This document shows positions 24,706 through 64,000 of a stretch of 64,000 bases of DNA, one piece after another (within the stretch, counting starts at the first letter, position 1; each line of letters begins with the position of its first letter). A program made the position numbers and the translations under genes. Source of the DNA: a virus; the IMG/VR virus record IMGVR_UViG_3300010885_052266, positions 36,880 to 100,879 of that record, one strand, 5' to 3'. The notes beneath the pieces were generated by a model that searched no databases, was not told the origin of the DNA, and saw nothing but the letters and a program-made list of their open reading frames with translations.

Positions 24706-24902
24706 CACCGCTTGATCACCATCCCGACCATATGTACTTCTTTGATGGTGGAATCCGCACTCGCTCCATCGTATTTCATTTGGACGTCGTAGTCATAAGT
24801 CCCAGCAGCGGGGAAATCTATCTTGAACGAGCAAGAATCCGCTGCGACGTACGGGCCTAAGACAACCTGCCCATCAGACCGCAGCACTCTATAAACGATC
24901 AT
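24705..24902 (-). CDS. Small hypothetical tail-tip protein
   Basis: 65 residues (MIVYRVLRSDGQVVLGPYVA), overlapping the I-J fusion stop by four bases (ATGA). It is a beta-rich sequence with CSFKIDFPAAGTYDYDVQMK. It may be an accessory of the tail tip. No family recognised. Confidence 0.55.
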   Translation of the reverse strand: MIVYRVLRSDGQVVLGPYVAADSCSFKIDFPAAGTYDYDVQMKYDGASADSTIKEVHMVGMVIKR

Positions 24903-33425: not shown

Positions 33426-36400
33426 TCAGATCCCCACGGTCAGATCGCCGCCGTCCCGGCGCTCGTTGGTGAGCGTGTTGCGCACCGCCTGGTTGATCAG
33501 CATCTCGATCTGACGTTGGGTGTTCGCAGCAGCGGACGGGTCCATCCGTCCGTCGCGGCCCGTGGCGCCACCCTGAATGGTGATCGGCGCGTTGATCGTG
33601 ATCGCGTTGCGGCCACCGCCGCCGGACGCCTGGACGCCCAGGTTGCCGCTCGACAGCCGCTTCAGCGGCAGGATCGCCTCGTTGTCGATCTCTCCTGCCA
33701 TCACCGCGCCGCTGGCGGCCTGAAACAGGGTGGGGCGGTCGATCACGCCGCCTGATGCGAGATAGCGGATCGGTTGACCCGGGCCAGGCATCAGTGATGC
33801 GGGCTCCGGCATTGGCAATGAGGCGTCGTGCCGCCCGGAGATCACGCCACCCTGGGCGAGGAAGATCGGCCTGTCCGGCGCTGGCATCATCGACGGCGAG
33901 GCCGGCGTGCTGCCCACACGGTCCGACAGGCCGGGCTTATGGAACGAAGGGCTATCCGCCCTCGCCAGCTCGCGCGCATCCAAATCGACCCCTAGCGCTC
34001 CGCCTGCGTGTCGCTTCAGTGGCAGGATCAATTCGCGGTCAACCCCATCCTTGCCACGGCTCGCCGCCTGGATACCAAATTTCCCATCTCCCAGCCGCTT
34101 CAGCGGCAGGATCGCCTCGTTGTCGATCTCTCCTGCCATCACCGCGCCGCTGGCGGCCTGAAACAGGGTGGGGCGGTCGATCACGCCGCCTGATGCGAGA
34201 TAGCGGATCGGCTGGCCGCCGACGACCACGCCGCCCTCGGCGAACAAGCCCATGAACGCGCTGAATAGGCTCCCGATGATGGATGATCCGCTGCCGGAGG
34301 CGGCGGCCCCGGCGGCTGATCCCACGGCGGATGCGGCGGTCCCGGCCGCCGAAGTGGAGCTGCTGGAGAACAGGCCCTTGGCCGCCTTCCCCGCGAACTC
34401 CGTGGCGCCGTCCACCACGTTCTCGAACCCTTTCATCAACGGGCGCGTAACGAAGCTCCGGAGCATGAACCGCTCAAGGTCGCGCAGCAGAGAGTTCAAG
34501 ACGTCGGACGTTTTCCCTCCACCCAGCACCGCGGCCTCGAAGGCCTGCATCGCCGACTCTTTCATCTGGAGGTAGCCCTGCCGGACCTGCTGCTGGTCCT
34601 GCATGAGCTGCTTCAGGCTCTCGTTGCGCTCGTAGACGGGTAGGACATCTTCGCGCTTCAGGGCCGCGCTCTTGCCATCTTTGTCTACTGCGTCTTTGGT
34701 GGCGATGACGGCGCGGTCTGCCAGAAGGGAGGCGCGTTCTCGACCCAAACGCGCCGCCGATGCGAATGGTCCGGCGCTGGCGTCCACCTCCAGCATCTCG
34801 TTCTCTTCGTCCATTTGCACGCGGCGTTTCTGGAAGTTCGCCTTCGCCTGGTTTCCGGCGACCTGATCCGTCTGAGGTTTGAACGCCTCGTATTTTTTGG
34901 TCACCTCATCGATTTCTTTGGCGAGACCTGGCATCTCCTTTTTGAGCGCCTCAAGTGCCCGGATCATGTTGTTGCTGGTCAGGTGGCGCTCGAACTGTTC
35001 GCCGGCCTCCTTGCCATGGTCGTATGCCTCGGCCAGCTCGTACAGACCACGAATCTGAGTGTCGTAATTGGCCGTCTGCCCAGCAAGGCTAAGCCTCTGA
35101 TTGTCGATGATGGACCCGACCCGGCGCTGGGCATCCTCCCTAGCGTTGGGAGAGCTAGGGTCCTCAAATCTTGCCGTCATAATCTGGCGGCCGAAATCCC
35201 CCGTGCCGGCCAGGATGGCGCTTATGCCTGCGGCATTCCGCCCGCGCTCGGAACCGTAGGCTTCGTTCGCCTGGATGTTACGGAACCGTTCGTCCTGCTG
35301 CTGCGCGACGCGCGCCGCATCCACGGCCCCGACAACCGAGGGGTCGTTCGACGAGCGGAGCCGCGCCATTGCGAGGGCCGGATCGCCGCTTTGGCTCCCC
35401 AGGGCACGCTCGTAGAGCTGGTTGATCTGGGGCGTGAAGGACGAGCCATACCCGCCCGCACCGAGGATGCGGTGCAGGGTCGGCAGATCGGTGACCGGGC
35501 CGGTGATTCCCTGTCGATCCAGGATCTGGCCGATGTATCGGCCAGCCGCGGGGATCGCGCGGCTCGGATCGAGGCGATCGTCCGTGGTATCGTTGACCGT
35601 CAGGCCCACGCCGCGGCGTTGGGCCGTGGCGGCATCGAACTGCATCATCCCGCGATGCTCGGTGCCGCCCGTGCCGTTGGTCGGAGGGTCGGCCAGAAGG
35701 CTCCCCTCGCGGTATGCCAGGACAGCCATCACCTCGGGCGTGATGCGGCCTCCTGTCGCGTTGGCGGCTTGCAGGAAGTAGGGATCGTATCGCGCGCCAC
35801 GCTGTTCCTCACCGCGCGGCAACACCTCGCTCGGCGATCCCATGATGGCTGGGTTGGTGCGGTTCTGCTCCAGGACGGGGGCGAGATATTGGAACTCCCG
35901 GCGCTGCGGCGGGGTCATCTCATTGATCTGGCCCTGCACCCCGGCTCGCCAGTTCGTGTCGCGCGCAGAGGTCAGGTTGGCCGCGGTGGTGCGGAGGCTT
36001 TCCATTTCGCCGCGCACCTCCTTCATCAAGCCGATCGTCTCGCGCAGCCCCCTTATCTGTGCCTCATCCTTGCTCGCGATGGCCTGCATCAGCAGACCGT
36101 GGTACTCGCGCTCAACCTGCAGGTCACTGATGAGGCGTTTCTGGACGTCGCCCCGCATGCCGGCCGCCGCCGTGATCTGGCGCTCCTGCTCGATCATCAC
36201 CTGCGCGTCGGCGCGACGTTGCTCAGCGGTGCCGGCGACCTGGATCGCCAGGGCCCCCCGGCGCTCGGTCCGGAAGGCCTCCGGATCGGTGGCGGGCAGT
36301 CTCAGCTGCTCCTGCTTGAGATCGGCCTCGATCCCTGCGTTGATGGCGGCGACGTCGCGCGCCGGGCCGAAGCCGGCAGCCGTGATACTGGCGGCCCTGG

Positions 36401-39567: not shown

Positions 39568-40395
39568 CTACGACACGAGCTTCGGCTTCTTGAAGGTCAG
39601 CACCCCCTGCCCTTCGATCGCGGCGCGATGCTCGGCGATCAGGGTCGCTCCTTCAGCTTTCATCCACCCCTGGATCGCGCTCGGTTGGAAAAGGTACCGG
39701 CCCGACTCTCTGCTGATGCGAACCGCGTCAGGAAGCTCTCGGTCCAGGCACCAGCGCGTAAGTCGGCGGCTGCATTTCTGGGATAGCGCCCGGCGGCGCT
39801 TGGTTCCGATACCGTGCTCGATCAGAACCTCCAGCATGGGACGGTACGCGATGGCCGCTATGCGGGGATCGGCTTCGACGATCATCGTCCGCACCTGGTC
39901 GGCGAGATTTTGAACCACCGCATCGGTGGTGTGTGCCTGAACGGCGAGGTGTTGAATCGCCGTGGCCTGTTCGGTCAGCATCTTCCCGACAACCGCCTTG
40001 ACGATACCGCCGATGGCGTTTCGGACTTCGTCGGGCAGAGACGGGCCTTGACCTGGCGCGGCGTAAGAGCCGGTCTGGCGAATCGAGGGGAGGACGTCAT
40101 GGCGGATCCAACGGTCGAACCGTCGAGCCTCGGGCTTTCGGCTGCGTAGGATGACGGAGTAGAGGCCGGGCTCGTTAATGAGGGTGACGGTCTTCGCTCC
40201 GTTGAAGCCTGGGACTCCCTCATTATTAGTGAGGGAGGTCTTCTCATCGTCGTCCAGTTTGGTCGCGGCCTGAGACGGATTGTTAATGCCCAGCGCGCGG
40301 CACACGTCGGCCAGCACCCACCATGGAGCGTTGTCACGCACCATAAGGCGCACGCGGGCCTCCTCGAACATGAGCGGAAGCAAACTACCTGCCAC
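39568..40395 (-). CDS. Bro-N domain antirepressor-like protein
   Basis: 275 residues from GTG 40395, ten bases after AGGAGG; TTG 40383 and ATG 40371 are alternatives. The Bro-N domain (about 9-100) is clear: RVRLMVRDNAPWWVLADVCR, ALGINNPSQAATKLDDDEKT, TLINEPGLYSVILRSRKPEA and FDRWIRHDVLPSIRQTGSYA. The C-terminal half has MTEQ-like helices and GWMKAEGATLIAEHRAAIEG. Such proteins bind DNA and often act as phage antirepressors. A truncated second copy of the N-terminal half and its leader lies directly upstream. Confidence 0.85.
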   Translation of the reverse strand: MAGSLLPLMFEEARVRLMVRDNAPWWVLADVCRALGINNPSQAATKLDDDEKTSLTNNEGVPGFNGAKTVTLINEPGLYSVILRSRKPEARRFDRWIRHDVLPSIRQTGSYAAPGQGPSLPDEVRNAIGGIVKAVVGKMLTEQATAIQHLAVQAHTTDAVVQNLADQVRTMIVEADPRIAAIAYRPMLEVLIEHGIGTKRRRALSQKCSRRLTRWCLDRELPDAVRISRESGRYLFQPSAIQGWMKAEGATLIAEHRAAIEGQGVLTFKKPKLVS

Positions 40396-40469
40396 AACGA
40401 CCTCCTGCATATAATGCGGACACCACATTGATATGTAGCACGACATCGCGCAACCCCCGTCGCCCACAG

Positions 40470-40769
40470 GACCTCGGCGGTGACCCACTTCTTGAAACGC
40501 CTCGCCGCAGGCTTGCGGCTGCGGAAGATCAAGGAGTAGAGGCCGGGCTCGTTGATTATGGTCGGAAGCGAGGCGCCGGCCGCTAACCCATTGATTTTGG
40601 CACCCTCGGCATTACCGAGGGTCTCCTTCTCGTCGTCGTCGAGGCGGCCGGCAGCATCACTCGGATTGCTGATCTCCAGCACGCGACACACATCCGCTAG
40701 CAGCCACCATGGAGCGTTGTCACGCACCATAAGGCGCACGCGAGACTCCTCGAACACGAGCGGAAGCAA
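40470..40769 (-). pseudogene. Truncated duplicate Bro-N domain
   Basis: From TTG 40769 the frame encodes a complete Bro-N core (RVRLMVRDNAPWWLLADVCR, SLPTIINEPGLYSLIFRSRK, ARRFKKWVTAEV) but then runs into the leader of the intact copy and continues as nonsense to 39975. The two copies align with a constant 386-base offset, including about 80 bases of leader, and differ at many positions. The start corresponding to GTG 40395 is GCG here. A short Bro-N-only protein might still be made. Confidence 0.75.
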
Positions 40770-47887: not shown

Positions 47888-49405
47888 TCAGCGGTACTTG
47901 GCGAGTGCTACCTCGGGCGGTGTGCCGCGCTGGATTTTGTAGAGTGCCACAGCCCTGTCGTTCGGGTCCGTCATCTTCTCAAGCGTGTCCGCGATGGCCT
48001 CCTCGGTCATCGCGTCGGGATCGCCGCCGGTATCGACCTGCTTCTCCAGCTTGCCCCCCTTGCCCAGGACGGCTTTCGGCACCTGCGGCAGCCCCATCAC
48101 CTTTTCGAGCGTGGCGGTCAGGCTGGTCACCTGCCTCTGCAGTTCGGTGACCGCCGGGTCTCGCTTTGCCAATGTGCCGGTCGGGGCAGCCTTGGCGAAC
48201 GGGTTCTTTTTCTTCTTGTCCTCTTCGCTTTCACCGTCCGCGCCGGCCGTCGGTTCTTCCTTGTCCGCGCCGTCGCCCTGATCTTGCTCGGCGCCCTGCT
48301 CCGCGCCAGCCATTTGGTCCGGATCGTCTCCGGTCGCCGCAGGGTCAGCACCCGCATCGCCGCCTTGCAGCTGGCCCAACACGCCGTCGAGCTGGATCAG
48401 GGCTGCCGAGAGGCAGCGGCCGACGATGTGCAGAGCGCCGATCATGTCGGTCGGCTCTTCCTCGCCCTCGGCCGCCTCGTCGTCCGGCGCACCTTGTCCG
48501 CCTGGGGCACCCCCACCGGCACCACCCGTCATGCTGGGGTCCAACTTGCTGAGCTTGTCGTCACCATCGGGCTCGAACAGCTTGTTCAGCGCGGCCTCTT
48601 CCACGCCCACGGCCAGCAGCACACCGCATGCCTGATCCAGCATGGCCTGATCCAGCACGTCGGGATGGGTCGCGAACTTGGCCAGCTCCTCGGGCAGCGC
48701 CGTCATCAGCCTGACATCCGCGCCGTCGGCGGATTTCACCACCAGTTCCTGCATGCCATCGGGAGGGTCGTCATCGGTCAGGATGTCGACATGCTCATTG
48801 ACCGCGGCCCGCATCGCCAGTTCCGCGCCAGCCAGGCAGTAATCGAGATACGCCTCGACTTCCTCGGACGGCGTGTCGGTGGCCTCCTTGCCGCCCCCCG
48901 GTGCAGCGTTGCCGTACCACTCCTTGCCTTCCTTGATCGCGGCGATGTCGGCGGCGAGGCGGGAGACCATATTTGCGATGCGTCCGACCGTACCCATCCC
49001 CTTGAACAAGGGATCGGCTTCCTCGGGCGCCATCTTCGCGAGCGCATCGGCGACGACCGCCTCCTGCTCATCACTGATCGCCTCGGTCAAAGCATCGGTG
49101 AACTCGGTGAAGCTCTTTGCCAGCAGCTCGTCGCGGTCGTCACCGCCGGCGCCTACAATGTCCGTCACGCTCCTCGAAAGCGTGTCGACCATCGCCTGGA
49201 GGGTCGCGTCGGGCATACCAATGTCCTTCTTTAGTGTGGATGTGCCGTCCTTCGCCTTCGCGCGTCTGTTCCGGACGGCCCGCAACAAGCGCATGTTCAG
49301 GAGATGGCTGGTCGCCGGGACAAGGTGCTTCACCTTGCGCTCCAGATCGTAGCCTTGCAGGCCAACGGTCGGATTGGGATTGGCGGAGAAGGTGGCGCCG
49401 CTCAT
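47888..49405 (-). CDS. Scaffold-like internal head protein carrying a capsid N-terminal segment
   Basis: 505 residues from ATG 49405, overlapping the upstream stop (ATGA). Residues 3-35 (GATFSANPNPTVGLQGYDLE, then KHLVPATSHLL) closely match the start of the mature capsid protein (AATFTANSNPTQGLQTYDLD, then KNLVPWNSPLR). The remainder is acidic and helical, with a long Asp/Glu/Gly-rich segment (about 315-430) and a helical C-terminus ending PPEVALAKYR. Such composition fits a scaffolding protein, and it sits right before the capsid gene. Its LAK end resembles the proposed protease site. Confidence 0.65.
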   Translation of the reverse strand: MSGATFSANPNPTVGLQGYDLERKVKHLVPATSHLLNMRLLRAVRNRRAKAKDGTSTLKKDIGMPDATLQAMVDTLSRSVTDIVGAGGDDRDELLAKSFTEFTDALTEAISDEQEAVVADALAKMAPEEADPLFKGMGTVGRIANMVSRLAADIAAIKEGKEWYGNAAPGGGKEATDTPSEEVEAYLDYCLAGAELAMRAAVNEHVDILTDDDPPDGMQELVVKSADGADVRLMTALPEELAKFATHPDVLDQAMLDQACGVLLAVGVEEAALNKLFEPDGDDKLSKLDPSMTGGAGGGAPGGQGAPDDEAAEGEEEPTDMIGALHIVGRCLSAALIQLDGVLGQLQGGDAGADPAATGDDPDQMAGAEQGAEQDQGDGADKEEPTAGADGESEEDKKKKNPFAKAAPTGTLAKRDPAVTELQRQVTSLTATLEKVMGLPQVPKAVLGKGGKLEKQVDTGGDPDAMTEEAIADTLEKMTDPNDRAVALYKIQRGTPPEVALAKYR

Positions 49406-52400
49406 TCGGCTGGCCCCGAGAAACGGGTCATGGCGCGCTGCACTGCATTCGGATCGTATCCGGTGAACCAGGAGTGCGCGGCCCGCCCGAGTTCGGCCCC
49501 GGCCCATGATCCCGCGACCCCGCCGGCAAAGGCGCCGACGCCCCCGGCAAACCCTCCGGCGATGCCCCCGATCGTGCTACCCACGATCTGCCCCCCGGTC
49601 TCCGCCGCCATTCGACCCAGGGAGAATTCTTCCTCGACGCGCTCCGGTACGGGCTTCCCCGCGACGCGATACGCGGCTCGGGCCGCCGCATCCCCGGCAA
49701 AGTTCCCAACCGCGCCGCCGACCGCTGCCGCGGCCAGTTTGACCCCGGCTGACACGATCTGCGCCGGCCCAGGGAGGAACCGCTCGGCGATCGACATGGC
49801 GGCCCCGGCAGGAAAACCCGCCGCGACCTTGCTCGCCAGTTTGTTCGCAACCCCCACAACGGCCTGCTTTCCCGCCAGGTGATGCGCGCCTTGTTCGGCC
49901 AGGCGCTCCCCCGCGATGGCCGATACCTCGGTCGTGACGATATCGGCCTTCTTTCCCGCTACCGCACCCAGGAATCGGCTCGCGATCTCCGACGCCGCCT
50001 CCATCCCGGCGTTGTATCCCAGTTCACCGGAAATCCGGACCGGGTGGAGGCTCCCCATCGGGGCAGCGGCGACGGGTTTCGGGGCAGCGGCGACGGGTTT
50101 CGGGCGAGCATGCCGGACCATAGCGGCCCGACCCGGCGTCTGTCGGCGCTGAGTGGGTTGCCGCGGCGCTCCGGCCGATCCGCCGCCCGCGGGCGCAAAC
50201 TCACCGCCCTCGGAACTGCCCGCGCCGTGGCGCTGGTGCTTGGTTGAGTCGAACGCCTTGATCAGATCGTCGATGTCGTCCAGCTTCTCGACGCGGGCGG
50301 CCCGCTTGAGCTTCCGCGCTTCCGCGTCCAGTGAGTCATACAGGGCCGCGTCGGTTTCCCAGTGGCCTTCCTTGATGTGGTCCGCCGCGTTTCGACGCGA
50401 CTCCTGGCTCGATCCGGCGAACGCGTTCAGCGCATTCGCCGCGACGGTGACCGAGTCCTGCAAGCCAAGGCCGTGGACGCGCCCGACATGGGACGCTAAG
50501 ACCTTCACGACGTTCTGCACGTCCCGGTTCGATCCGGGCCAGTTGTTCGTGAGGGACCGCCCGAACCGGTTCGCGTGCCCCGCTGTCAGGTTTTCGAACT
50601 CTTCGTCGTCCCAGTCCTTCGGCTGACTGGCCGACTTCCGGACATTGTCCCGCACGCTCGGCCCGGCATCACCTTGCCCCGGGTTGCCCTGGCGCTGCTC
50701 TCCGCCCTGGCTCTGGCCTGCGATCTTCTTGTGGATCCCGAGCATCGTCTCCGGGGACAAGCCTTTCTGCACACCAACGATGTGCGCGGCCCGGTGCAGG
50801 TTCGCCTTTTCCTCGCGGTTCGGGTTGAACCGCAGCGCGCGATCCATCTCTGACGTCAAAGCGCGAGCGATCGCGCCCCTGTCGTCGGTGTTGAAGTCGG
50901 CCGCGTTCGGGAAGATCGAGTGATGGTTTCGAGGGACCTCGTTGGCCTTGGCCCGATTGGTCAGCAGGACGTAGCGCTGCTGCGGGGTCAGGACCTGCGC
51001 CTCATTGGCGAACAGCGATTTCAGCGCATGGAAATATGTGCGCTGATCATCACCACCCTTCTTGTCCGGCGTGAGATACAGGTTCTCGATATGCTGGCGC
51101 ACGGGCTGGCTCGCGCCCTTCGCGTCGCTGCCCATCTTGAGGTAGGCGACCCGCACATCGCCGGCGCCTGGGATGTTCTCCCGCACGATCGCGCCGGCCT
51201 TGCCGATCTCCGACAGGGCGCTCTTGACCATGTCCTTCACGGCCTGCGGCAGATTGTGGAGATCGCCGGTATCGAGCGCGCCACCGCCGCCTCCGCCGCC
51301 TCCGCCGCCCTCGGGACGTTCCCAGCGCCCGTCGCGGAGCGCGCCCTTGACTTGCGACATCTTGCCGCCCGACACGATCGGCCTGACCTGACCGTTCGTG
51401 CTGTCCTGTCGCTCGCCGTAGACGACGATTCGCTCGCCCTTTTCGGTGGGGTGCGGCGCGGTCAGGGCGGAGAACGACGCGCCGGTCAGCGCATTGGTGT
51501 CGGTTTCGATACTCAGGCCACGCGGGAACGGAGCCGGGGTCTTGCCGTCCTCCGGGCCGAGCACTCTGTCCTTGCCCCAGTTGAAGAGGTCCTTTGCCCC
51601 ATCCCCCGCCAACCCGATCAAGCCGATATTGCGGGTGGTTTTGATCCACGACGGCGAGAATCCACCCTTGCCGTCGGGCGTGAAGAATAGTTCGTGCGCC
51701 AGATCGGTCGCACCCGCGCGCGCCAGAGCCGTCTTGTCCGCGGCAAACGCGGCAAGGCGCTGCATGGTCGGGCGTTGCAGGAAGTCCCGAGCCGCCCCGG
51801 TCATCTGGGCCGTGGCCTGGCGCAGATCCTGCCGGATGTCAGCCGCCAGGGACTCCGGCATCAGGCGGATGCGCGAGCCAGGGGCCGGGTTGTCGAGCGC
51901 GTTCTGGTAATCGGTCACCGCCGAAGCGCGCCGGGCCCGCGCCAGGGCCAGTTCGCCACTGACCTCGTCCCAGGATGCTGTGGCGGCCGAGACGCGAGAA
52001 TCCAGGTCGGCCCGGACCGTCGGATCGATGTTCCTGCCGCGCAGAGCCGCCCGGGCATCCCGTACGGTTTGCAGCTCGCGCTGGACCTGGGACGCCTTGC
52101 GCTGGAGGCCCCGCACCTCGCGATGCAGCGCGGCCACTTTGGCCGTGGCGGACTTTGCCCCGCGCGGAACGCCGTGGGCCTCGGACATAACGGCAAGCGC
52201 GCCGAGGTTTCGGTTGGCCCGCTCCGCGATCATCTGGGCCTGCTTGCCCCGCGTCTCGGCAACAGTGGCATCGAAGACCCGCGCCGCCTTGTCCCTGGCC
52301 TTGGCACTGATGTCGGAGATGATCACGGCCTGATCCATGGCGGACGCGGCCGGGATTTTCTTGCCGGTGATCGGCGATACGATCCCGGCGCCGGCATCCT

Positions 52401-54423
52401 TCAGCTTCAGCGCGGTGGTGGATGCCTTCGCGTTCAGTTCCGCTGCCTTGGCCGTGGCGACGGAAGCAGTCTCGACCGCGGCCTCGGCCGCGTGCACCGC
52501 TTCCAATCCGGTCGTCCTGGCCAGAATGGCCTTGGCACTGGTCTCGGCCGTCTGCGCTTCTCCCCACGCGGCGGCGGTCTGCGCAACCGTGTCTTCCGCC
52601 GTCTTGATCTTGCCGAAATGGGCCGTGATCTGATCGTCGACGCCGTTGACCCAACCGGATCGGCCCTCGAACCAGTGCAGCGCCGTGGTCTGCTGCTCCG
52701 GCGCCAGATCCTTGATGGCCTGCTTGAACTGCGCCGGGGTGGCCCGCTCCGCGAAGGCCTTGATCTCCGACGCGGCCCGCGTGTCCTTCAGGTTGCGCTG
52801 GGGGATGCCGGCCTTGATGTCGGCCACCGAGCGCCAGGTCTTGCCCGCCTTGTCCGGGACCTTGAATTCATCCCAGAACGCCGCGATCGATCCGATCTTT
52901 TCGTTCACCTCATCGGCGATGCGCCGCTTGTAGTGCAGGTCGGTCGATGCCCCGTAACGCTCCATGGCGTCCCTGGCCGCCTTGAACTGCGGGTTCTGCT
53001 GGACCGCCTCGTCCAGCACAGTGTCGCGGGTCGCCAACAGGCGCTTCACGCCCCCTTGGCCAAGCCGGGTGTTGGTCAGGGACAGGCGACGATCGAACGC
53101 GTCCTTGGCCTTGCGGGCCGCGCCCTGCACCAGCTTAGCGTTTCCGCCGCGCAGCATGGCATAGGTTCCGAGCGCCGCGGCCGCGCCGCCCAGCACCGCG
53201 CCGGCCACCGCGCCATTCCGCGCGTTCGCTGCCGACGAGAACTTTCCGTCCTCATCACGATAGGGGTTGCCGCGCTTACGCCCCACGAGTTCGCCAACGC
53301 CAAGGCCCGCGGCGGCGCCACCGGCACCCCCTGCCAGGGCGCCGCCGATCCCGGCGAGGCCGGCCAGGACGAGGCGCCCACCGCCGGACCACATGCCTGG
53401 AACGCGCGGCACAGCCTTGGCGAGATCATCGCCGGCCGCGACCTTCTGGATGCGGCGATAGGAGGTTGCGTCGATCGACTGGGCAAATGGTTCCGGGTCC
53501 AGGACCGATCCTTTCCACGTCCGCTTGATCACCAGCGCGGTGGGGATCGCCAGCGCGACCATCATGGCGCCACGGCGCACGGCTTGCGCCCGAGGCGTGG
53601 CACCGCCGGAAGCGGCTGCGTCGCCCAGGAAGCGAACCGACCGGCTCGCGGCCCCGGCGACAAAATCACCGGCTAGTGCCCCCGCCTTTCTGCCCAACTC
53701 GGCCCCGGCGAGGGTCGACGAGCGGGCGCTTGCTTCTCGCGCCGCGGCCCCGGCTCGGAGCTTTGTCGCGAATGCTCCTGCCGCCCTGCTGCGAGCCAGA
53801 CGAGCGACCAGATCAGCGCCGGCCGCGAGACCCGATGTCGCGGTCGTGGCGCCGCGTGCCGCAACCCCTACCCCGATCCCGGCGGCGAGCTTTCCGGTCT
53901 GACCTCCAGCCCAGCGCGCGGCGCGAGCCACCAGACCATTCTCCTTTCCTCTCGCGAGACTGGTCACCAGGCCAATAGCGGCGACGGCGGACGTGCCGTC
54001 CCGGATCGAGACGGCCGCTTCTCGGTATCGGGTCTCCGGGATGATCGCAGCCTGAAGCGCGGCGTAGCCGGCATTCTGCTCTGTCAGCTTCTCATGCTCG
54101 CGCTGGGTCTTGGGTAGCGCGACAGACAGAGATGGCGACGGCGCGGAAGCGGCCGATGCGCCTCCTCCACCCTTCGCCTGGAACTTCCCATCATCATCCC
54201 TGGGATGTTCGGCTTCGTCGAAACCGTCTCTGGCGGCCTTGGCGAGCAGATGACTGTCGATCTTGGCCATGGCCGTGACGCCTGGGGTCCTGCCCTGATG
54301 GGCGCTGGAATAGAGCTTGCGCAGCTCCTGCAGCTTGACCGGGGCGCTGGGGTGCGCCTGGTTGTGCTGGATGACGCGATTGCGCAGCTCGCCGATCAGG
54401 TTGGAGTCGAAATGCGGCCGCAT
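49402..54423 (-). CDS. 1673-residue internal virion protein, ejection candidate
   Basis: ATG 54423 is chosen because it overlaps the protease stop (TGATG). Residues 59-81 carry the head-protein tag, HLLAKAARDGFDEAEHPRDD then DGKF; further tag versions are YRDEDGKFSSAANARN (internal) and IKAFDSTKHQRHGAG (near the end). Large parts are Ala/Gly-rich with hydrophobic stretches, and the C-terminus has a long glycine zipper (GGQIVGSTIGGIAGGFAGGV). Such features suit a protein packaged in the head that inserts into the host membrane during DNA entry. No known enzyme domain was recognised. Confidence 0.6.
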   Translation of the reverse strand: MRPHFDSNLIGELRNRVIQHNQAHPSAPVKLQELRKLYSSAHQGRTPGVTAMAKIDSHLLAKAARDGFDEAEHPRDDDGKFQAKGGGGASAASAPSPSLSVALPKTQREHEKLTEQNAGYAALQAAIIPETRYREAAVSIRDGTSAVAAIGLVTSLARGKENGLVARAARWAGGQTGKLAAGIGVGVAARGATTATSGLAAGADLVARLARSRAAGAFATKLRAGAAAREASARSSTLAGAELGRKAGALAGDFVAGAASRSVRFLGDAAASGGATPRAQAVRRGAMMVALAIPTALVIKRTWKGSVLDPEPFAQSIDATSYRRIQKVAAGDDLAKAVPRVPGMWSGGGRLVLAGLAGIGGALAGGAGGAAAGLGVGELVGRKRGNPYRDEDGKFSSAANARNGAVAGAVLGGAAAALGTYAMLRGGNAKLVQGAARKAKDAFDRRLSLTNTRLGQGGVKRLLATRDTVLDEAVQQNPQFKAARDAMERYGASTDLHYKRRIADEVNEKIGSIAAFWDEFKVPDKAGKTWRSVADIKAGIPQRNLKDTRAASEIKAFAERATPAQFKQAIKDLAPEQQTTALHWFEGRSGWVNGVDDQITAHFGKIKTAEDTVAQTAAAWGEAQTAETSAKAILARTTGLEAVHAAEAAVETASVATAKAAELNAKASTTALKLKDAGAGIVSPITGKKIPAASAMDQAVIISDISAKARDKAARVFDATVAETRGKQAQMIAERANRNLGALAVMSEAHGVPRGAKSATAKVAALHREVRGLQRKASQVQRELQTVRDARAALRGRNIDPTVRADLDSRVSAATASWDEVSGELALARARRASAVTDYQNALDNPAPGSRIRLMPESLAADIRQDLRQATAQMTGAARDFLQRPTMQRLAAFAADKTALARAGATDLAHELFFTPDGKGGFSPSWIKTTRNIGLIGLAGDGAKDLFNWGKDRVLGPEDGKTPAPFPRGLSIETDTNALTGASFSALTAPHPTEKGERIVVYGERQDSTNGQVRPIVSGGKMSQVKGALRDGRWERPEGGGGGGGGGGALDTGDLHNLPQAVKDMVKSALSEIGKAGAIVRENIPGAGDVRVAYLKMGSDAKGASQPVRQHIENLYLTPDKKGGDDQRTYFHALKSLFANEAQVLTPQQRYVLLTNRAKANEVPRNHHSIFPNAADFNTDDRGAIARALTSEMDRALRFNPNREEKANLHRAAHIVGVQKGLSPETMLGIHKKIAGQSQGGEQRQGNPGQGDAGPSVRDNVRKSASQPKDWDDEEFENLTAGHANRFGRSLTNNWPGSNRDVQNVVKVLASHVGRVHGLGLQDSVTVAANALNAFAGSSQESRRNAADHIKEGHWETDAALYDSLDAEARKLKRAARVEKLDDIDDLIKAFDSTKHQRHGAGSSEGGEFAPAGGGSAGAPRQPTQRRQTPGRAAMVRHARPKPVAAAPKPVAAAPMGSLHPVRISGELGYNAGMEAASEIASRFLGAVAGKKADIVTTEVSAIAGERLAEQGAHHLAGKQAVVGVANKLASKVAAGFPAGAAMSIAERFLPGPAQIVSAGVKLAAAAVGGAVGNFAGDAAARAAYRVAGKPVPERVEEEFSLGRMAAETGGQIVGSTIGGIAGGFAGGVGAFAGGVAGSWAGAELGRAAHSWFTGYDPNAVQRAMTRFSGPAE

Positions 54424-55004
54424 CACGCAACCCTCGCTCGCCACAGGTCGGAGAATGTCTTCGCCGGGGGACGCCACAACTGGCCGAACGTGCGTGCTAC
54501 GCCGTGTAGTGGCAGACGTTCTGTCATGCCATCCGCCTTTACGAGTTCAGCGAAGCGCGCAGTCGGGATGCAAGGGTTATCGACCAGGGAGATTTCGGTG
54601 ATGCGGGGCGTGTATCGCCGCAGGTTGCCATCCTGCCAGGATTTCGCGTATCCGCCACCCATACTTACACCAGTATATACTCCCTCAAGGCACTTTCTCC
54701 ATTCGTTGTCGTCAACGATTTTCATGACGACATCGACGGCCTTCTCGTCGTCGTTGAAGGTGATTTCCGTCACCTTCCCCGCCGCCGTCTTTTGGTGCAT
54801 TACGCGGACATTTCCCTTCGACAGGCCGTTCGACATGGTCGCCATCTCGTCAGACCATTTTTGAAACGCGGGCTTCGCGGTTGCGTAGTCCATGATTTCT
54901 TGACTCTTGTCCGCCACTTCCTGTGCGGCTCGCGCAATGACCAGGCGCCGCTCCACGTCAATCTTGACCAGCGGGATACTGAGCATGGGCTGTTGGCTGT
55001 TCAT
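54423..55004 (-). CDS. Prohead protease, XkdF type
   Basis: 193 residues (MNSQQPMLSIPLVKIDVERR). It has the XkdF-like serine protease pattern: DYATAKPAFQKWSDEM, NDDEKAVDVVMKIVDDNEWR, LEGVYTGVSMGGGYAK with the likely active Ser, and RYTPRITEISLVDNPCIPTA. LVKADG at 154-159 just after the domain may be a self-cleavage site. Proteases of this type cut scaffold and capsid leaders during head maturation. It sits centrally among the tagged head proteins. Confidence 0.85.
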   Translation of the reverse strand: MNSQQPMLSIPLVKIDVERRLVIARAAQEVADKSQEIMDYATAKPAFQKWSDEMATMSNGLSKGNVRVMHQKTAAGKVTEITFNDDEKAVDVVMKIVDDNEWRKCLEGVYTGVSMGGGYAKSWQDGNLRRYTPRITEISLVDNPCIPTARFAELVKADGMTERLPLHGVARTFGQLWRPPAKTFSDLWRARVA

Positions 55005-57969: not shown

Positions 57970-60187
57970 GGCGCAGCACGTCGGCGAGGGGAATGCGGAG
58001 ATCCGCGACCATCGCGTTCCGCTTCAGGCGCAGTTCCGGCGTCTCCGGGACTGGCGGCACCGGAGCAGGCCCGAGGAGGCGATCCACGTCGGCCAGCACC
58101 GAGGCGACGTGCGGATCGATGCGGCGACGGGCAGCACCAGGCTGAGGCGCTGCGCTGGACAGGATGCGGTCGGCCTCCTGCACCTGCGTCGCGACGCGAT
58201 CGTCGATGCAGTCGGACGGGGCGGCCTTGGTGAGCGGCTTCTTGGGGAATGTCACGGTGCCGAAAGCGCGGTCCTGCGCGTAGAGCGGCGTGAGCATCTT
58301 CGTATCGAAGAGCGCCACGTTCCTGCTCCGACCGATAGTGCCGTGATAGCCAGCCTCCTCCAGGATATTCTTCTGAGCCTCTGTCGGGTTTGTGTGCAGG
58401 GCCGACAAACCCGAAAAATCCCTTTTGGTCGAACCCCAGGAACCATTATGGCCAGCGGCCACCAGTCGTTCGTAGAAGGGCACCAAGTCCTTCGGCATTT
58501 TCCTCTTGTCGGTCGAGATGGCGTCCTCTGGAAAATCCAGCCCGAGTTCCAGCAACTTGGCCTTCGGGCTCACTTTGAAGGCGGTCACCGATCCCAGGGC
58601 CTCTTGCCCAGCCCCATACCCCCGGGTGACCTTCTTCTTTGTTGCCGCATAGACGGCGGTGTATCCTCGCGGGATAGGCGTGAAATCGTGTGTCGCAGGC
58701 GCGCCCCGCCACACGATTGTCCCTGGGTTGGCCTTGATCGCCGATCGAACCGCCGCCAGTCTCGACGCGCGGTCGATTTTCAGGGACTGCCCGAGAGAGG
58801 GAACGATAGCGGCCACCGCATTGCTTCCCAGCTTCGGTAGCGTTCTGGCTAGAATGGTCAGCCCTCGACCGTGACCTGTCAGACCGTAATACAAGCCAAC
58901 GGCCCCGGCGCCGGCCGGCCACACCATATTGCCTGCATAGTTCAGGCGATCCGACCAACTTGGGCCTACCCATCCGTCTTCAGGCCTTCGCCTTATGGCG
59001 GCTGTCGTTTCCATCGCAACCGACCCCACCGCGAGGGCTGAGGTCGCGAGAAGAGAGGCAGTGCCTCCGCTCCTGGCTAGGCCACGCAGAACGCGCCTTA
59101 TGGCGGGAGTCCCGCGCGGCATGGCCGCTGCGGCCACAATGCCCGCGTTAAGGCCCATGATCCCCACGGCGCCCCCGACAGATCCCAGGATCCCCTGGTT
59201 GACGGGAGATCTGAGCGGAGAGACGATGCTTTCCTTGAGGTCTGCCAATAATTTTCGGTTTTTCGGAGCGAACTTCCCGTCATCGTCCCGCTTAACCTTC
59301 GACTCATCACTGAGCGGAGAGACGATGCTTTCCTTGAGGTCTGCCAATGTTCCGGCGATCGTGGTGCCGCCCTTGCTCGCGAACTTCCCATCCTCGTCCC
59401 GCTTAACCTTCGTCTCGTCGAAGGCCTTCACCAGCACATCGTTCGGCCGCAACCGCAGACGCACCGCACCGGTCCGCTTGTCCCTGCGCTGGTCCGCGAA
59501 CGGCTTGCCGAACTCGGCCCGATACGGCTGCGATGCCCCCTTCAGATCCCCGGTGCGCATCTCGTTCCAGAGCCGCCGGCGTGTGTAGCGCATGAATGGA
59601 ATGAGCGGGGTCAGCTCCTCCTTCTGCGAGTCACTCATCCAGAAGTCGTAATCGAGCACGCCGAAATCGTGCAGCGCCAGCATGGCGGCATGATTGTAGG
59701 CGCGGTTGACGGCCCCAGGCGGCGCATCGGGCGGCAGGATCAGATCCCCGGTCCGACGCTTCATGGTGAACTTGTCCTTGATCCCGTGCACCGCGACGAG
59801 CTGGCGGGTCTCCTTCGCCTTGGCGATCGCGTCCTGGCGGTTCGATTGGATCACGCCCTTCAGCTTGCCGACCAAGGTCGTGTGCTGCTCGGGCGAAAGC
59901 GCCTTCGGTGCCTGCCATTCGATCTTGGGCGGCGCCTTGAACCAGTCCGCCGGCGCCTCCCGGTTCTTGCTGCCCGTGTAGGCTGTCGGCAGCTCGGCAA
60001 TCTTCGCGCCGATCCGCTGCCAGGACTCGCCCCGTGTCAGGGAGCGGCTCTGCGGGCGCGCGACCGTGGCCATGGGAAGCGAGCCCGCACCGGAGCCAGA
60101 GAACCGTCCCGCGTCGTCCCTGGTGTGCTTGGACTCATCCCACCGGTAGGACATCTGGAACTTGGCGAGGGGGAGCGATAGCGGCAT
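57959..60187 (-). CDS. Polyvalent head protein with ART-like domain
   Basis: 742 residues. The N-terminal tag is MPLSLPLAKFQMSYRWDESK then HTRDDAGRF. Two further tags follow a duplicated 33-codon unit: VKRDEDGKFASKGG (261-274) and VKRDDDGKFAPKNR (298-311), each followed by LADLKESIVSPL. Hydrophobic Gly-rich segments lie at 332-440. Residues about 487-630 resemble an ADP-ribosyltransferase: TIVWRGAP (Arg494), GYTAVYAATKKKVTRGYGAG, VSPKAKLLELG, and GYHGTIGRSRNVALFD. ART domains in polyvalent proteins are thought to modify host targets after injection. Active residues are not proven. Confidence 0.65.
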   Translation of the reverse strand: MPLSLPLAKFQMSYRWDESKHTRDDAGRFSGSGAGSLPMATVARPQSRSLTRGESWQRIGAKIAELPTAYTGSKNREAPADWFKAPPKIEWQAPKALSPEQHTTLVGKLKGVIQSNRQDAIAKAKETRQLVAVHGIKDKFTMKRRTGDLILPPDAPPGAVNRAYNHAAMLALHDFGVLDYDFWMSDSQKEELTPLIPFMRYTRRRLWNEMRTGDLKGASQPYRAEFGKPFADQRRDKRTGAVRLRLRPNDVLVKAFDETKVKRDEDGKFASKGGTTIAGTLADLKESIVSPLSDESKVKRDDDGKFAPKNRKLLADLKESIVSPLRSPVNQGILGSVGGAVGIMGLNAGIVAAAAMPRGTPAIRRVLRGLARSGGTASLLATSALAVGSVAMETTAAIRRRPEDGWVGPSWSDRLNYAGNMVWPAGAGAVGLYYGLTGHGRGLTILARTLPKLGSNAVAAIVPSLGQSLKIDRASRLAAVRSAIKANPGTIVWRGAPATHDFTPIPRGYTAVYAATKKKVTRGYGAGQEALGSVTAFKVSPKAKLLELGLDFPEDAISTDKRKMPKDLVPFYERLVAAGHNGSWGSTKRDFSGLSALHTNPTEAQKNILEEAGYHGTIGRSRNVALFDTKMLTPLYAQDRAFGTVTFPKKPLTKAAPSDCIDDRVATQVQEADRILSSAAPQPGAARRRIDPHVASVLADVDRLLGPAPVPPVPETPELRLKRNAMVADLRIPLADVLRRAA
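59211..59348 (-). repeat. 99-bp-offset direct repeat in the ART-like gene
   Basis: A 39-base block is identical at 59211-59249 and 59310-59348. Flanking sequence of each unit is similar as well, giving the doubled RDxDGKF plus LADLKESIVSPL module. Confidence 0.85.
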
Positions 60188-60200
60188 TGTCAGTTTCCGA

Positions 60201-60410
60201 TCAGGTAATCCGCTGGAGGCCGACCAATTCCACCTCGGCGGGCGGATCGGTCGCCACCGGGAGCGACGGTCCTTCCAGCGTCAGCACCGTCACGCCGGGA
60301 TCGGTGTGGCTCACAGCCAGGATAGAGCATCCGATCGGGATGCCGATCGCCTCACACAGCAGAACGTCGCTGATCTTCAACACGCCAACGCGGGATACAG
60401 GTTCGGTCAT
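60201..60410 (-). CDS. Small hypothetical protein after portal
   Basis: 69 residues (MTEPVSRVGVLKISDVLLCE). ATG 60410 overlaps the portal stop (ATGA). It has a beta-rich sequence with IGIPIGCSILAVSHTDPGVT and a C-terminal VATDPPAEVELVGLQRIT. It may be a small head component. Family unknown. Confidence 0.6.
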   Translation of the reverse strand: MTEPVSRVGVLKISDVLLCEAIGIPIGCSILAVSHTDPGVTVLTLEGPSLPVATDPPAEVELVGLQRIT

Positions 60411-62287
60411 CGCCTTCCCCTCTTCAATTTGCCCTCGACGTCCCGCAGCGTGCGCAGCACGGTGGGGTGGAACACGACGTTCGAAAGGGGGTCGGATCGG
60501 AACGTATCGTCGTCGGTCACGTCGATGCGTCGCGCTGCCTCGCCCTTGGCGCCCAGGCCGACCGCCTCCAGCAGGGTGGGGTCGATATCGTTCAGCAGCT
60601 GCGCGGCCTTGGGATGCACGCCCGGCGCCACGTTGGGCGCACCGGCACCGTCCATGGGCGGCCCGCCGTTGTGGCCCATCATGCCGGGCATGCCGCCCAT
60701 CGCGTCCGGCGCCATCGGAGCCCGTGGCATCATCAGGCCCATCTTCTGGGCCTTGAGGATGTCCGTGACGAACATCATCCCCATCGGGCCGATACCCCAC
60801 ACGGCATGATCCATGCCGATCGGGGCTTCGCCGCGCGCGATTCGCACCTCGTCGATGGACTTGCGCCCGATCTGGATCAGCGCCAGGTCGCGTTGATCCT
60901 GCTCGGCCGGATCCGCGCGCCGCGCGTCGTCCCAGACCAGCTCCAGGTCGGTGTAGCCGAACACGTTCTGGATGATGTGGTCCATCAGGGACTTGAACCA
61001 CATCATCATCGGCTGGAGCCCCTCCGCCAGCGCGGCCTCATAGGCGTTGTCCGCCGTGGCTCGGTTCATCATCTTGACGAACGGCATCGGCGGCAGGGAG
61101 AAGGCATAGCAGACGACCCTGGCGAGCCATTCGTCGTTGCCGTCCCCCAGACTCTGCTCCGACCTGGTGGGCTGGTAGTTCATCTCGCCCGGGATGAACT
61201 TCATCTTCCGGCGCGTGTTCTGGTCGGCCAGCATGGCGTCCCAGACTTTCTGGAAGTGCTCGATCTGCTCGGGCGTCCAGGTCTTTGGCACGCTGACCAG
61301 CGCCTCGGGCACATTGCCCTCGGTGAAGTAGGACAGCTTCGCGACCTCGCGCCGGATCGCGATGTTGACCGTCATGATGATCTGCTCGACCGGCGAGAAG
61401 CCGTATCGGTGGCCGACCCGGATGTTCCTGGGCCAGTAGATCAACTCGTCGGTCGTATAGTTGACGGCGGGCAAGCCCTTCAGGATGTGCTGGTAGGCGG
61501 GATAGGGCGGCTCCGGCACGCGCCCCGTGTGATCCAGCAGCACGTTGATGTCCGCCCCTTGGATCAGTTCAAGGCTATGGACCTTCCCGCCGACGGTCCG
61601 ACGCACGTAGATGGCGGGCGCGTCGGTGACGAGCTGGGCGTCGATCAGCGATCTGGCCCACAGGGTCCAGGGCGTGCGCCGGTCTGGGCGACGCATTATG
61701 GCTTCGATTTCGTCGCTCCGCTCGTCCGCGTCACGCCGGACCTTCTCGTTCCTGTCCTTGATCGGCAGGCAGCTCCACGTGAGATTCCCAAATTGATCTT
61801 TCCGGGTCTCGATCGCGAGGCGCAGGATGTCGAGGTTCTGGGCGAGCGCCTCCAGTTGCGCGAAGCTGGTCCCCTCGAACCGGCGCGGCGTGACCCCGAT
61901 ATTGGCAGCAGCCGGGTAGTCCCACTCTCGGCCCCTGACCTCTTCGGGGTTTTGGACCACAGGGCGAAGCGGGTTGCCCGGCCCCATCCACGGATCGCGC
62001 AGCTGGACCGTAAAGCTGGTGCCGGTGACCCGAGACACGGCGGTTGACTGCCAGTCCAGCAGCGACGTTCCCGGCGCCTGCCCGCCCACGGGTGCGACCT
62101 GCTGGGGCTGGTGCTGCGCCGGGTCGGGTTGGTTCGCCTGGGTCTGTGACGCGGCGCCCCCGTTGAACACGGCAGCCAGCGTGTCCTTGGCGCGCTGGAA
62201 CCAGCTCGCCTCGATCGGCCGCTCTTTCCCATCGCTGCGCCAGTTGCGCCGCGGATCAGGGACGTGGTTCGGGTCGCCCAGTGCCAT
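60407..62287 (-). CDS. Portal protein
   Basis: 626 residues (MALGDPNHVPDPRRNWRSDG). Portal marks: LAQNLDILRLAIETRKDQFG, WTLWARSLIDAQLVTDAPAI, DELIYWPRNIRVGHRYGFSP, MTVNIAIRREVAKLSYFTEG, and a C-terminal helix with FKSLMDHIIQNVFGYTDLEL. A Met/Gly/Pro-rich segment near residue 540 lies in the C-terminal crown. The protein forms the dodecameric ring through which DNA is packaged and ejected. Terminase, which normally lies just upstream, is not in the window. Confidence 0.9.
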   Translation of the reverse strand: MALGDPNHVPDPRRNWRSDGKERPIEASWFQRAKDTLAAVFNGGAASQTQANQPDPAQHQPQQVAPVGGQAPGTSLLDWQSTAVSRVTGTSFTVQLRDPWMGPGNPLRPVVQNPEEVRGREWDYPAAANIGVTPRRFEGTSFAQLEALAQNLDILRLAIETRKDQFGNLTWSCLPIKDRNEKVRRDADERSDEIEAIMRRPDRRTPWTLWARSLIDAQLVTDAPAIYVRRTVGGKVHSLELIQGADINVLLDHTGRVPEPPYPAYQHILKGLPAVNYTTDELIYWPRNIRVGHRYGFSPVEQIIMTVNIAIRREVAKLSYFTEGNVPEALVSVPKTWTPEQIEHFQKVWDAMLADQNTRRKMKFIPGEMNYQPTRSEQSLGDGNDEWLARVVCYAFSLPPMPFVKMMNRATADNAYEAALAEGLQPMMMWFKSLMDHIIQNVFGYTDLELVWDDARRADPAEQDQRDLALIQIGRKSIDEVRIARGEAPIGMDHAVWGIGPMGMMFVTDILKAQKMGLMMPRAPMAPDAMGGMPGMMGHNGGPPMDGAGAPNVAPGVHPKAAQLLNDIDPTLLEAVGLGAKGEAARRIDVTDDDTFRSDPLSNVVFHPTVLRTLRDVEGKLKRGRR

Positions 62288-62298
62288 GCCGGCGGGCC

Positions 62299-62571
62299 TT
62301 ACTGCAGCGCGATGATATAGGTGGCCGTGGTGCCGGTCTGGAGGACGCGGCGCGCATACATCGGCAGTAGCGTGCCGGCCGGGACCGCCTTCAGGGTGAC
62401 GGGCTGGGCGTCGTCGTCATTGCGCAGGATCACGGTCACATCGCCCAATCCGCCCACCCACAGGCTGCGAGCCGTGAGCGGCAGATCGAGACCATCGCTG
62501 GGCGTGACGGCCTGCCCCTTGATGAACGGCCCGTTCATGCCGGGGTGCGCGCCGTGATACATGTCGGGCAT
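62299..62571 (-). CDS. Head spike base protein (RcGTA rcc01079-like)
   Basis: 90 residues from ATG 62571 (MPDMYHGAHPGMNGPFIKGQ), with GGAG 14 bases upstream; a TTG 15 bases earlier is an alternative. The pattern AVTPSDGLDLPLTARSLWVG, GDVTVILRNDDDA, TLKAVPAGTLLPMYARRVLQ and TGTTATYIIAL matches the small beta-sandwich base protein of RcGTA-type head spikes. In that particle it sits on the capsid as a mount for spike fibres. Here it lies next to the portal, and no separate spike fibre gene is visible. Confidence 0.75.
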   Translation of the reverse strand: MPDMYHGAHPGMNGPFIKGQAVTPSDGLDLPLTARSLWVGGLGDVTVILRNDDDAQPVTLKAVPAGTLLPMYARRVLQTGTTATYIIALQ

Positions 62572-62634
62572 CGCCGCGATCTCCAATAATTGTGGAGACC
62601 TCGGTGGCGGGCGCCTGTCGCCGCGACAAGGCTG

Positions 62635-62901
62635 CTAGGCCGCTCTGAGCCGTTCCTTGTCAGCCGGAGATTCGCATTCGCTTGCATCCGTCGCCACCGC
62701 GGCCAGAATCTGCCCGATGGCGTCGGCAACCTCGCCAGCAGCTGCTGGCGGCAGCTCCAGGAGCGCGCGCGTCAGTATCGTCAGGCCAACTTCTAGCCTG
62801 GCGCCGATGGAAAAGGTTCCCCCGTCAACGGCTGCGTTGATCCTGACGAGCGCGGCCCGCGCTTCCTTATCTGAGCAGAATGTCGGTAGAATCTCGGTCA
62901 C
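62635..62901 (-). CDS. Small helical hypothetical protein
   Basis: 88 residues from GTG 62901, preceded by GGGAGACACCTT, a good ribosome site. It is mostly helical, with DKEARAALVRINAAVDGGTF and TILTRALLELPPAAAGEVAD. It is the first gene after the probable late promoter. Family unknown. Confidence 0.6.
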   Translation of the reverse strand: MTEILPTFCSDKEARAALVRINAAVDGGTFSIGARLEVGLTILTRALLELPPAAAGEVADAIGQILAAVATDASECESPADKERLRAA

Positions 62902-62996
62902 AAGGTGTCTCCCTTATTGGTGTGCGTGACAGTTTCTTCATCAGGCGAGGGACGTTTTTGTTTTGTCGCGGCATTATCTGAGGATTGTTCGTTGAT

Positions 62997-63026
62997 ATTA
63001 TCCAAACGTCAACCGGCCGTTCGCAA
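62997..63026 (-). promoter_or_regulatory. Probable late promoter upstream of the portal operon
   Basis: On the minus strand TTGCGA (63026-63021), an 18-base spacer and GATAAT (63002-62997) form a plausible promoter in the AT-rich 147-base gap between genes. An alternative TTGACG (63012-63007) with AACAAT 17 bases on overlaps it. It would drive the head genes. Confidence 0.5.
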
Positions 63027-63048
63027 CAATTTGGCGCCGGATGCTTGG

Positions 63049-63876
63049 CTAGACTGACGATTCGGCGGATTTACGCTCATTTCCTGGTCTTGTCCGGGCT
63101 GGTATGCGCGAAATGCGCTGATGCTCGGGGCAATATGAAAAGCCCGCTTGACGCAAGTCATGGGGCACCGGGCAGTCACAGAACGGATACGCCGGGTAGG
63201 CGGGCGTCTCGTCGTTGCTCCACAACGGCCAGCAGCAGGTCGGGCTTGGTCCGGCAGCGACGAGCTTCTGTGGCTCCACCCTGTACCGGAACGGCTCGCC
63301 CTCGACCGGCTCGTAGTCGATGCGTTTGACCTCGGGCTTGACCTCGGGGGTCGCTTCGCCGCGCGCCCGGGCCGAGTAGGGTGCGTGTGGGTTGCGGGTG
63401 AACGGCCCCCAGGCCGTAACAGCCCCGGTTGCGATGATCCGCACCCGACGCCGGCTGTCCTTGATCTCCACCGTGATGCGCCCGGCGATGGCGAGACGCT
63501 CCAGCGCGCGGTGGACCGAGTTTCGACCGCGTCCGCCCGCAAGTTGCCCGAGTTCCGGGTTTCCTGGCATGGGCTGGATGCTGCGGGCCAGGCGCTGAAC
63601 GATGGCCTCGACCTGGGCCATAAGGGGCGTGACGGCGTGGGTCGTGACTGGCGCCGCGGGGAGGGCGAGTGGCGCGGGATCTGCGATGAAGCGCAGGCCG
63701 GCCGGCGCAATGAGGCGCAGCATCCCCTCGGAGAAGGCTGCGAGGACATGGGCCGGGATGTGGCGCTCAAGCGGAAGGCGCCTCTGGCCGCTCCGGAAAT
63801 CGACCGGCTCCGGGAAGCATGGTATCGCGAACCGGCCATGAACGCTTGTGGAGAGGATAGCTGATGTGGCTGACAC
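63049..63876 (-). CDS. Winged-helix regulator with GcrA-like C-terminal zinc motif
   Basis: 275 residues from GTG 63876, nine bases after GGGAG. Residues about 85-150 form a probable winged helix: VEAIVQRLARSI, LGQLAGGRGRNSVHRALERL and a wing ITVEIKDSRRRVRII. The C-terminus has CCWPLW (214-219), PFCDC (231-235) and SYCPEH (247-252), the CxWP...FC...YCxxH signature of GcrA, the alphaproteobacterial cell-cycle transcription factor. The usual GcrA N-terminal DNA-binding part is absent. It may direct late transcription by contacting host RNA polymerase. It lies just upstream of the proposed late promoter. Confidence 0.65.
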   Translation of the reverse strand: MSATSAILSTSVHGRFAIPCFPEPVDFRSGQRRLPLERHIPAHVLAAFSEGMLRLIAPAGLRFIADPAPLALPAAPVTTHAVTPLMAQVEAIVQRLARSIQPMPGNPELGQLAGGRGRNSVHRALERLAIAGRITVEIKDSRRRVRIIATGAVTAWGPFTRNPHAPYSARARGEATPEVKPEVKRIDYEPVEGEPFRYRVEPQKLVAAGPSPTCCWPLWSNDETPAYPAYPFCDCPVPHDLRQAGFSYCPEHQRISRIPARTRPGNERKSAESSV

Positions 63877-64000
63877 AGGAGCCGGCTCCCAGTGATTCCC
63901 GCAAATCAGGCGGCACGGGATGGCTACGTCACATTTCTGTGTCCCGTCAAATACATTATCATGTTCGGGTTAGCGGGCGTTCTTCCCGAGAAGGGCCGCC
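63877..64000 (-). other. Right edge: untranslated upstream region of the GcrA-like gene
   Basis: No gene is visible in these 124 bases. On the minus strand there is a TTGACG hexamer followed by the imperfect dyad GACACAGAAATGTGAC, which could be a promoter with an operator. The window ends before the next gene. Confidence 0.35.

Follow-up and report, generated by a model that had tools for sequence, protein, structure and literature searches.

Three phages encode, between the large terminase subunit and the portal, a protein that joins a winged helix to a C-terminal domain related to the sigma-interacting domain (SID) of GcrA and that lacks the DNA-binding head of GcrA itself. The protein studied here, P0001, is encoded in a window of 64,000 nucleotides that forms the right-hand end of a virus record of 100,879 bases. 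The first 123 bases of this record are identical to its last 123, so that the map closes on itself. The sequence comparisons support a replacement of the GcrA head in P0001 by an unrelated winged helix, with the GcrA-type C-terminal domain kept. We consider it fairly probable that P0001 is a phage transcription factor, in which a DNA reader of its own is combined with a tail binding region 2 of the host housekeeping sigma.

The gene and its place in three phages

The coordinates given in an earlier note on this DNA are exactly those of the open reading frame (ORF) listed as P0001 in Table 1. The codon-position G+C of this frame is 0.68/0.56/0.77, to be compared with 0.64/0.46/0.78 in the terminase large subunit gene and 0.73/0.53/0.80 in a Mu F-like gene; together with the relatives in two other phages, this rules out a chance ORF or a wrong frame. 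Because residues 1-70 show the same pattern as the remainder of the gene (0.70/0.54/0.74), the N-terminal extension is probably translated.

Table 1 Coordinates of P0001, its parts and its neighbours in the window
Feature	Position	Strand	Basis and remarks
P0001, whole gene	63049..63876	-	275 aa, GTG start; winged helix and GcrA-type C-terminal domain; codon-position G+C, relatives in two other phages
Possible ribosome-binding site, GGGAG	63886..63890	-	9 nt before GTG, read from sequence
N-terminal extension, residues 1-80	63637..63876	-	Low model confidence
Winged helix-turn-helix, residues 81-151	63424..63636	-	AlphaFold2; LexA Z 9.1, CRP about 8
GcrA-type SID, residues 209-256	63109..63252	-	Sequence and profile comparison; motif C214-H252 at 63121-63237
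Terminase large subunit gene, end	63970..64000	-	Most of the gene at the record start, L002:93-1787; joined via the 123-bp terminal repeat (window 63878-64000)
Portal gene, downstream neighbour	60407..62287	-	Pfam Phage_portal E 2.6e-19; phrog_2662 E 3.2e-63
Two overlapping sigma-70-like promoter matches	62984..63026	-	Downstream of P0001, same strand; weak

The first relative of P0001 was reached through the portal gene. A search with this gene returned 110 viral relatives, 80 of which were kept, and among 15 of these 80 whose records were searched with P0001, one (G001, 96,571 bases) contained a relative, P0003 (E 1.2e-27). When IMG/VR was scanned with P0001 and P0003 together, five loci were recovered, namely G001, L090, L091, P0005 and P0006. 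L090 and L091 represent a third phage in two contigs, with an identical fusion gene and downstream sequences that did not match in an ungapped comparison; P0005 is a phage protein with a GcrA head (Pfam GcrA, E 8.3e-15), and P0006 consists of a SID only (E 0.017). Direct searches with P0001 yielded no relative in phages (six records at E 10, the best at E 4) or in plasmids (two records), and the pattern stretches retrieved from IMG/VR (2) and from GTDB contigs (183) included none that was confirmed, so that no fusion relative beyond the three phages was confirmed in the IMG/VR or GTDB pattern scans. An Azospirillum plasmid match (E 2) was rejected: its alignment covers the winged helix and linker, and the plasmid protein lacks the CxWP motif.

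The gene order is the same in the three phages: terminase small subunit, terminase large subunit, fusion, small ORFs and portal, all in one direction, with other ORFs between the two terminase genes in the record that contains the window. As it lies between the terminase large subunit and the portal in all three, the fusion gene is a member of the late cluster and does not stand apart in front of this cluster. The terminase stop and the GTG of P0001 are 93 bases apart (63877-63969), and a further 147 bases (62902-63048) separate P0001 from the next ORF, of 88 aa, which was not picked by a rough gene caller. This downstream gap is not conserved: the ORF that follows in the two relatives overlaps the fusion gene or begins 38 bases after it. 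The earlier note had placed the gene just upstream of a likely late promoter, which is a weak claim: the promoter-like sites, both in this gap, are little above chance (2 in 60000-64000, against a mean of 0.6 and sd of 0.9 in 50 shuffles of this 4-kb region), the gap varies and the gene is inside the cluster. A 14-bp near-palindrome at 62992-63005, taken as an operator candidate, had two other matches in the window with 3 mismatches each, and 3 matches were reached by 6 of 100 shuffles. No repeated operator was found in 62860-64000, where the repeats are short two-copy pairs.

Several other genes of the record were observed in passing. Two terminase-large-subunit-like ORFs lie near each other (L002:93-1787 (-), 564 aa; L002:2330-3478 (-), 382 aa), and the shorter matches phrog_38 over residues 16-286 only and differs by eye in the region of the ATP-binding motif. 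ORFs of 2434, 2025, 1700 and 1691 aa occupy the structural region (window 16274-23578, 24899-30976, 33426-38528 and 49402-54477, all (-)), and an anti-repressor gene stands among the structural genes (window 39568-40488 (-)). A phosphoadenosine phosphosulfate reductase-like gene (window 1021-2028 (+)) and a gene encoding a nucleoside diphosphate kinase domain (L002:12274-13113 (-)) are also present.

The C-terminal domain and its relation to GcrA

By sequence comparison, the C-terminal domain of P0001 is homologous to the SID of GcrA. The motif CxWP...FC...YCxxH is formed in P0001 by C214, W216, P217, F232, C233, Y248, C249 and H252. On its own, P0001 reaches only E 0.14 and 13 bits against Pfam GcrA (PF07750), below the curated cut-off of 26.9, and as a whole it falls outside this family, the N-terminal head being absent as well. 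P0003 matches the same model over positions 76-145 (E 4.6e-4; 21 bits, also below 26.9), and the L091 fusion gives no match at E 1. A GcrA SID profile searched against 1428 six-frame ORFs from the record retrieved nothing at E 10, and P0001 obtained just 2.8 bits with filters off. The last loop of the P0001 SID contains an insertion, which is the likely reason why this profile misses it. Since the direct Pfam and SID-profile scores are weak, the homology rests on bridging relatives.

These relatives connect P0001 to GcrA in both directions. The SIDs of P0001 and the phage GcrA P0005 are 52% identical over 44 columns (BLASTP E 2e-11, single comparison), and the score of 121 between the P0001 C-terminal stretch and P0005 was attained by 0 of 2000 shuffles, and again by 0 of 2000 when Cys and His were held fixed. 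Set against 29 chromosomal GcrA SIDs (30 loci from the Pfam GcrA search described below, minus L158, omitted since the motif expression failed to find it), the profile of the three fusion C-termini gave a probability of 94.6 (E 6.9e-8), compared with 0.6 and 0.1 for wrong-domain controls. In the reverse search, 385 alphaproteobacterial genomes were scanned with a profile built from the three fusions, and 85 had a match at E <= 0.01, mostly via model positions > 170. Of 190 genomes of this class, 115 contain a match to Pfam GcrA, and at least 40 of the 49 fusion-profile matches in those 190 genomes overlap a GcrA match. The nine others comprise three short SID-only ORFs (L101, L103, L105), one GcrA-like protein with a head (L124), three matches not made via the SID (the second match in G042, G083 and G077) and two in G080. 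The proposal in the earlier note that the C-terminal motif of GcrA is kept is thus confirmed by the identity to P0005, the profile comparison and the reverse search; similarity confined to spaced cysteines, which would have spoken against it, is not what the shuffles show.

Structural comparison was less informative for this domain. A profile (A3) matched the GcrA structure 5yix in the PDB at E 4.6e-8, a result that is partly circular, as A3 itself contains GcrA sequences, five of them chromosomal and one from a phage, and profiles A2 and A4, built without GcrA-headed rows, matched no PDB chain at E 10. In an AlphaFold2 model of P0005 from a single sequence, residues 73-157 fell below pLDDT 50, which left the SID unusable.

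Some SIDs are found nearly by themselves on alphaproteobacterial chromosomes. Five ORFs of 66-110 aa (L101, L103, L104, L105 and L106; flanks L160 and L162-L165) contain little beyond a SID of the WP[LM]W type, and their neighbours resemble ordinary metabolic genes by eye.

The winged helix and other heads

A divergent GcrA head in P0001 was ruled out by profile comparison, in which the probability of a GcrA DNA-binding head was 0.1 for P0001 and 98.5 for the positive control P0005. An AlphaFold2 model was obtained from a 15-row alignment in which the N-terminal part was covered by three rows only. The overall confidence of the model is limited (mean pLDDT 65, pTM 0.38); the winged helix is formed by blocks of pLDDT 83-95 over residues 81-160, residues 1-80 are mostly below pLDDT 60, and the SID is of mixed confidence, with blocks of pLDDT 53-86 over 211-260. 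Three helices and a beta wing superpose on known winged helices of the LexA/CRP type, which is a likeness of fold and not of family membership. The best fit is LexA (PDB 1jhf; rmsd 2.1, 22% identity over 71 residues), limited to the first 72 residues of LexA and showing, as a common fold, no function; CRP heads rank second (Z scores in Table 1). Foldseek alone gave no match to the model at E 0.001. Because the structure-match lists are filled by the winged helix, the SID fold was barely probed by them and the absence of GcrA from these lists is uninformative.

Among the three phages, conservation is highest in the winged helix (49-74% pairwise identity), followed by the SID (31-44%) and the extension (24-32%). 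The N-terminal part had been described in the earlier note as a MarR- or GntR-like winged helix. The winged helix is borne out, whereas the family assignment is not: LexA and CRP rank highest, no MarR or GntR profile was matched in Pfam at E 10 (only GcrA and TBPIP appear), and in NCBIfam the one MarR model found (E 0.13) scored 12.3 bits against a cut-off of 230.

Other arrangements of the SID occur in viruses. The motif expression was found in 13 distinct frames among 164 viral loci, of which three have this winged helix, six a GcrA head (head profile E <= 3e-7) and four neither detected. Because portal similarity or SID patterns had been used to select the loci, these counts carry no frequency information, and the winged-helix profile used for sorting was built from the same three fusion proteins. 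In L091, two SID proteins with different heads adjoin, as the fusion gene is directly followed by a second GcrA-like protein (L091:7312-7893; Pfam E 2.4e-11), whose head is that of GcrA and whose SID is of the CCYP type. It is possible, at somewhat less than even odds, that the SID of GcrA serves phages as a portable module of ~45 residues for polymerase docking, which they have joined to a GcrA head, to a winged helix or to no detected head. Activators would result that act through sigma-70 region 2 independently of GANTC methylation, and P0001, encoded between terminase and portal, would be one of these.

Matches confined to the head side of GcrA were also observed. P0005 matched 43 records of public phages, and among the 40 matches listed the coverage is residues 2-74 at most, on the head side. 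The listed proteins of Lactobacillus and Lacticaseibacillus phages (H33-H72) match the head side of phage GcrA only, and some of them are annotated as GcrA cell cycle regulator. A 376-aa ORF that heads a reverse-strand gene run (L002:8523-9653 (-)) matches phrog_323 ("transcriptional regulator, D5-like"; E 1.6e-6), and also the GcrA profile in its helix-turn-helix part only.

A possible route to host polymerase and its alternatives

In Caulobacter GcrA, the SID binds sigma region 2, the head reads methylated promoters and an unstructured linker lies between them (PMC7403470); a 2025 preprint describes monomeric GcrA as binding below the -35 box and contacting the sigma2 domain (PMC12340889). 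GcrA is among the few activators described as acting via sigma region 2 (PMC7403470, PMC6917491), and its choice of promoters is tied to adenine methylation. By analogy, the SID of P0001 would dock on region 2 of host sigma-70, and its winged helix would bind DNA at an operator of its own, other than the site of GcrA. Host RNA polymerase would be placed at promoters bearing this operator and their opening aided, as by GcrA at methylated promoters, with the GANTC methyl mark no longer necessary. The outcome would be activation rather than repression, and P0001 probably steers host polymerase to chosen genes. The late genes of the phage are candidate targets because of the position of the gene, and activation of late genes by a LexA homologue has been described in phage GIL01 (PMC6182141); its place inside the late cluster would suit feedback or action at host promoters equally well.

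The same docking might instead serve a sigma-70 decoy or repressor, in which the SID occupies region 2 and excludes host GcrA, or holds polymerase at a blocked site, and thereby shuts off the host. This is compatible with the SID proteins in which no DNA-binding head was detected, both in the four viral frames above and in the short chromosomal ORFs, yet a winged helix that is the best conserved part fits a protein obliged to read DNA, and we regard a decoy as unlikely. Somewhat less probable still is a C-terminal domain that has lost sigma binding and has taken another role, for instance as a structural zinc knuckle in a packaging-cluster protein that binds a phage operator. Such a loss would agree with the insertion in the last loop of P0001, with the Met that replaces the motif Trp in the L091 fusion, and with the absence from P0001 of the AY(Q)P stretch, which most of the chromosomal GcrA rows have after the motif (QRISRIPART in P0001). 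It is opposed by the invariance of C214, P217, W219, P228, C233, S247, C249 and H252 in 9 SID rows, and by P0005, which combines a GcrA head with a WP[LM]W-type SID like that of P0001. The invariant residues suggest that three Cys and one His may hold a metal in the SID.

The position beside the terminase large subunit and the DNA-binding head might further be taken to indicate a DNA-binding packaging protein, the terminase small subunit. This is highly improbable, and the identity was ruled out, since in each of the three phages another gene fits, matching phrog_1206 (E 1.1e-5, 7.1e-10 and 1.6e-5), and no PHROG matches P0001 at E 1 or P0003 at E 0.1.

As a putative activator, P0001 resembles several known proteins in part. 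With Caulobacter GcrA (PF07750; PDB 5yix, 7ye1) it shares the CxWP...FC...YCxxH SID and the order of head, linker and SID (layout in PMC7403470), and it differs in its unrelated winged-helix head, WP[LM]W in place of WPIGDP, the loop insertion and the lack of AYQP. GcrA-type proteins are encoded by other phages (phiCbK gp222, PMC3556154; Atu_ph08 gp5, PMC6630229), which are described as GcrA homologues and compared here by description only; the phage GcrA P0005, unlike P0001, has kept the GcrA head. GIL01 gp6 (PMC6182141) is a LexA-like phage DNA-binding protein that activates late genes, but its host is Bacillus, its abstract mentions no SID and it resembles P0001 in fold alone. Homologues of GcrA encoded by phages have been known from the literature since 2012 (phiCbK; PMC3556154); new here, within the open-licence literature, is the GcrA SID on a different head, no description of which was found in that literature, judged mostly from titles and the starts of abstracts. 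If our reading is correct, this natural head swap would show that a tail docking on sigma can function with a DNA reader unrelated to the GcrA head, and would give a phage a means of redirecting host polymerase that requires no phage-encoded sigma factor or polymerase. Treating "GcrA" as two separable modules would sharpen annotation, given that some head-only matches are annotated GcrA.

The GANTC site is under-represented in the record, with 209 observed and 373 expected under a second-order Markov model; this figure, taken from this phage alone, would fit an alphaproteobacterial host. A possible N6-adenine DNA methylase (L003:8754-9584 (+); Pfam N6_Mtase E 2.3e-6) is of interest given the rarity of GANTC.
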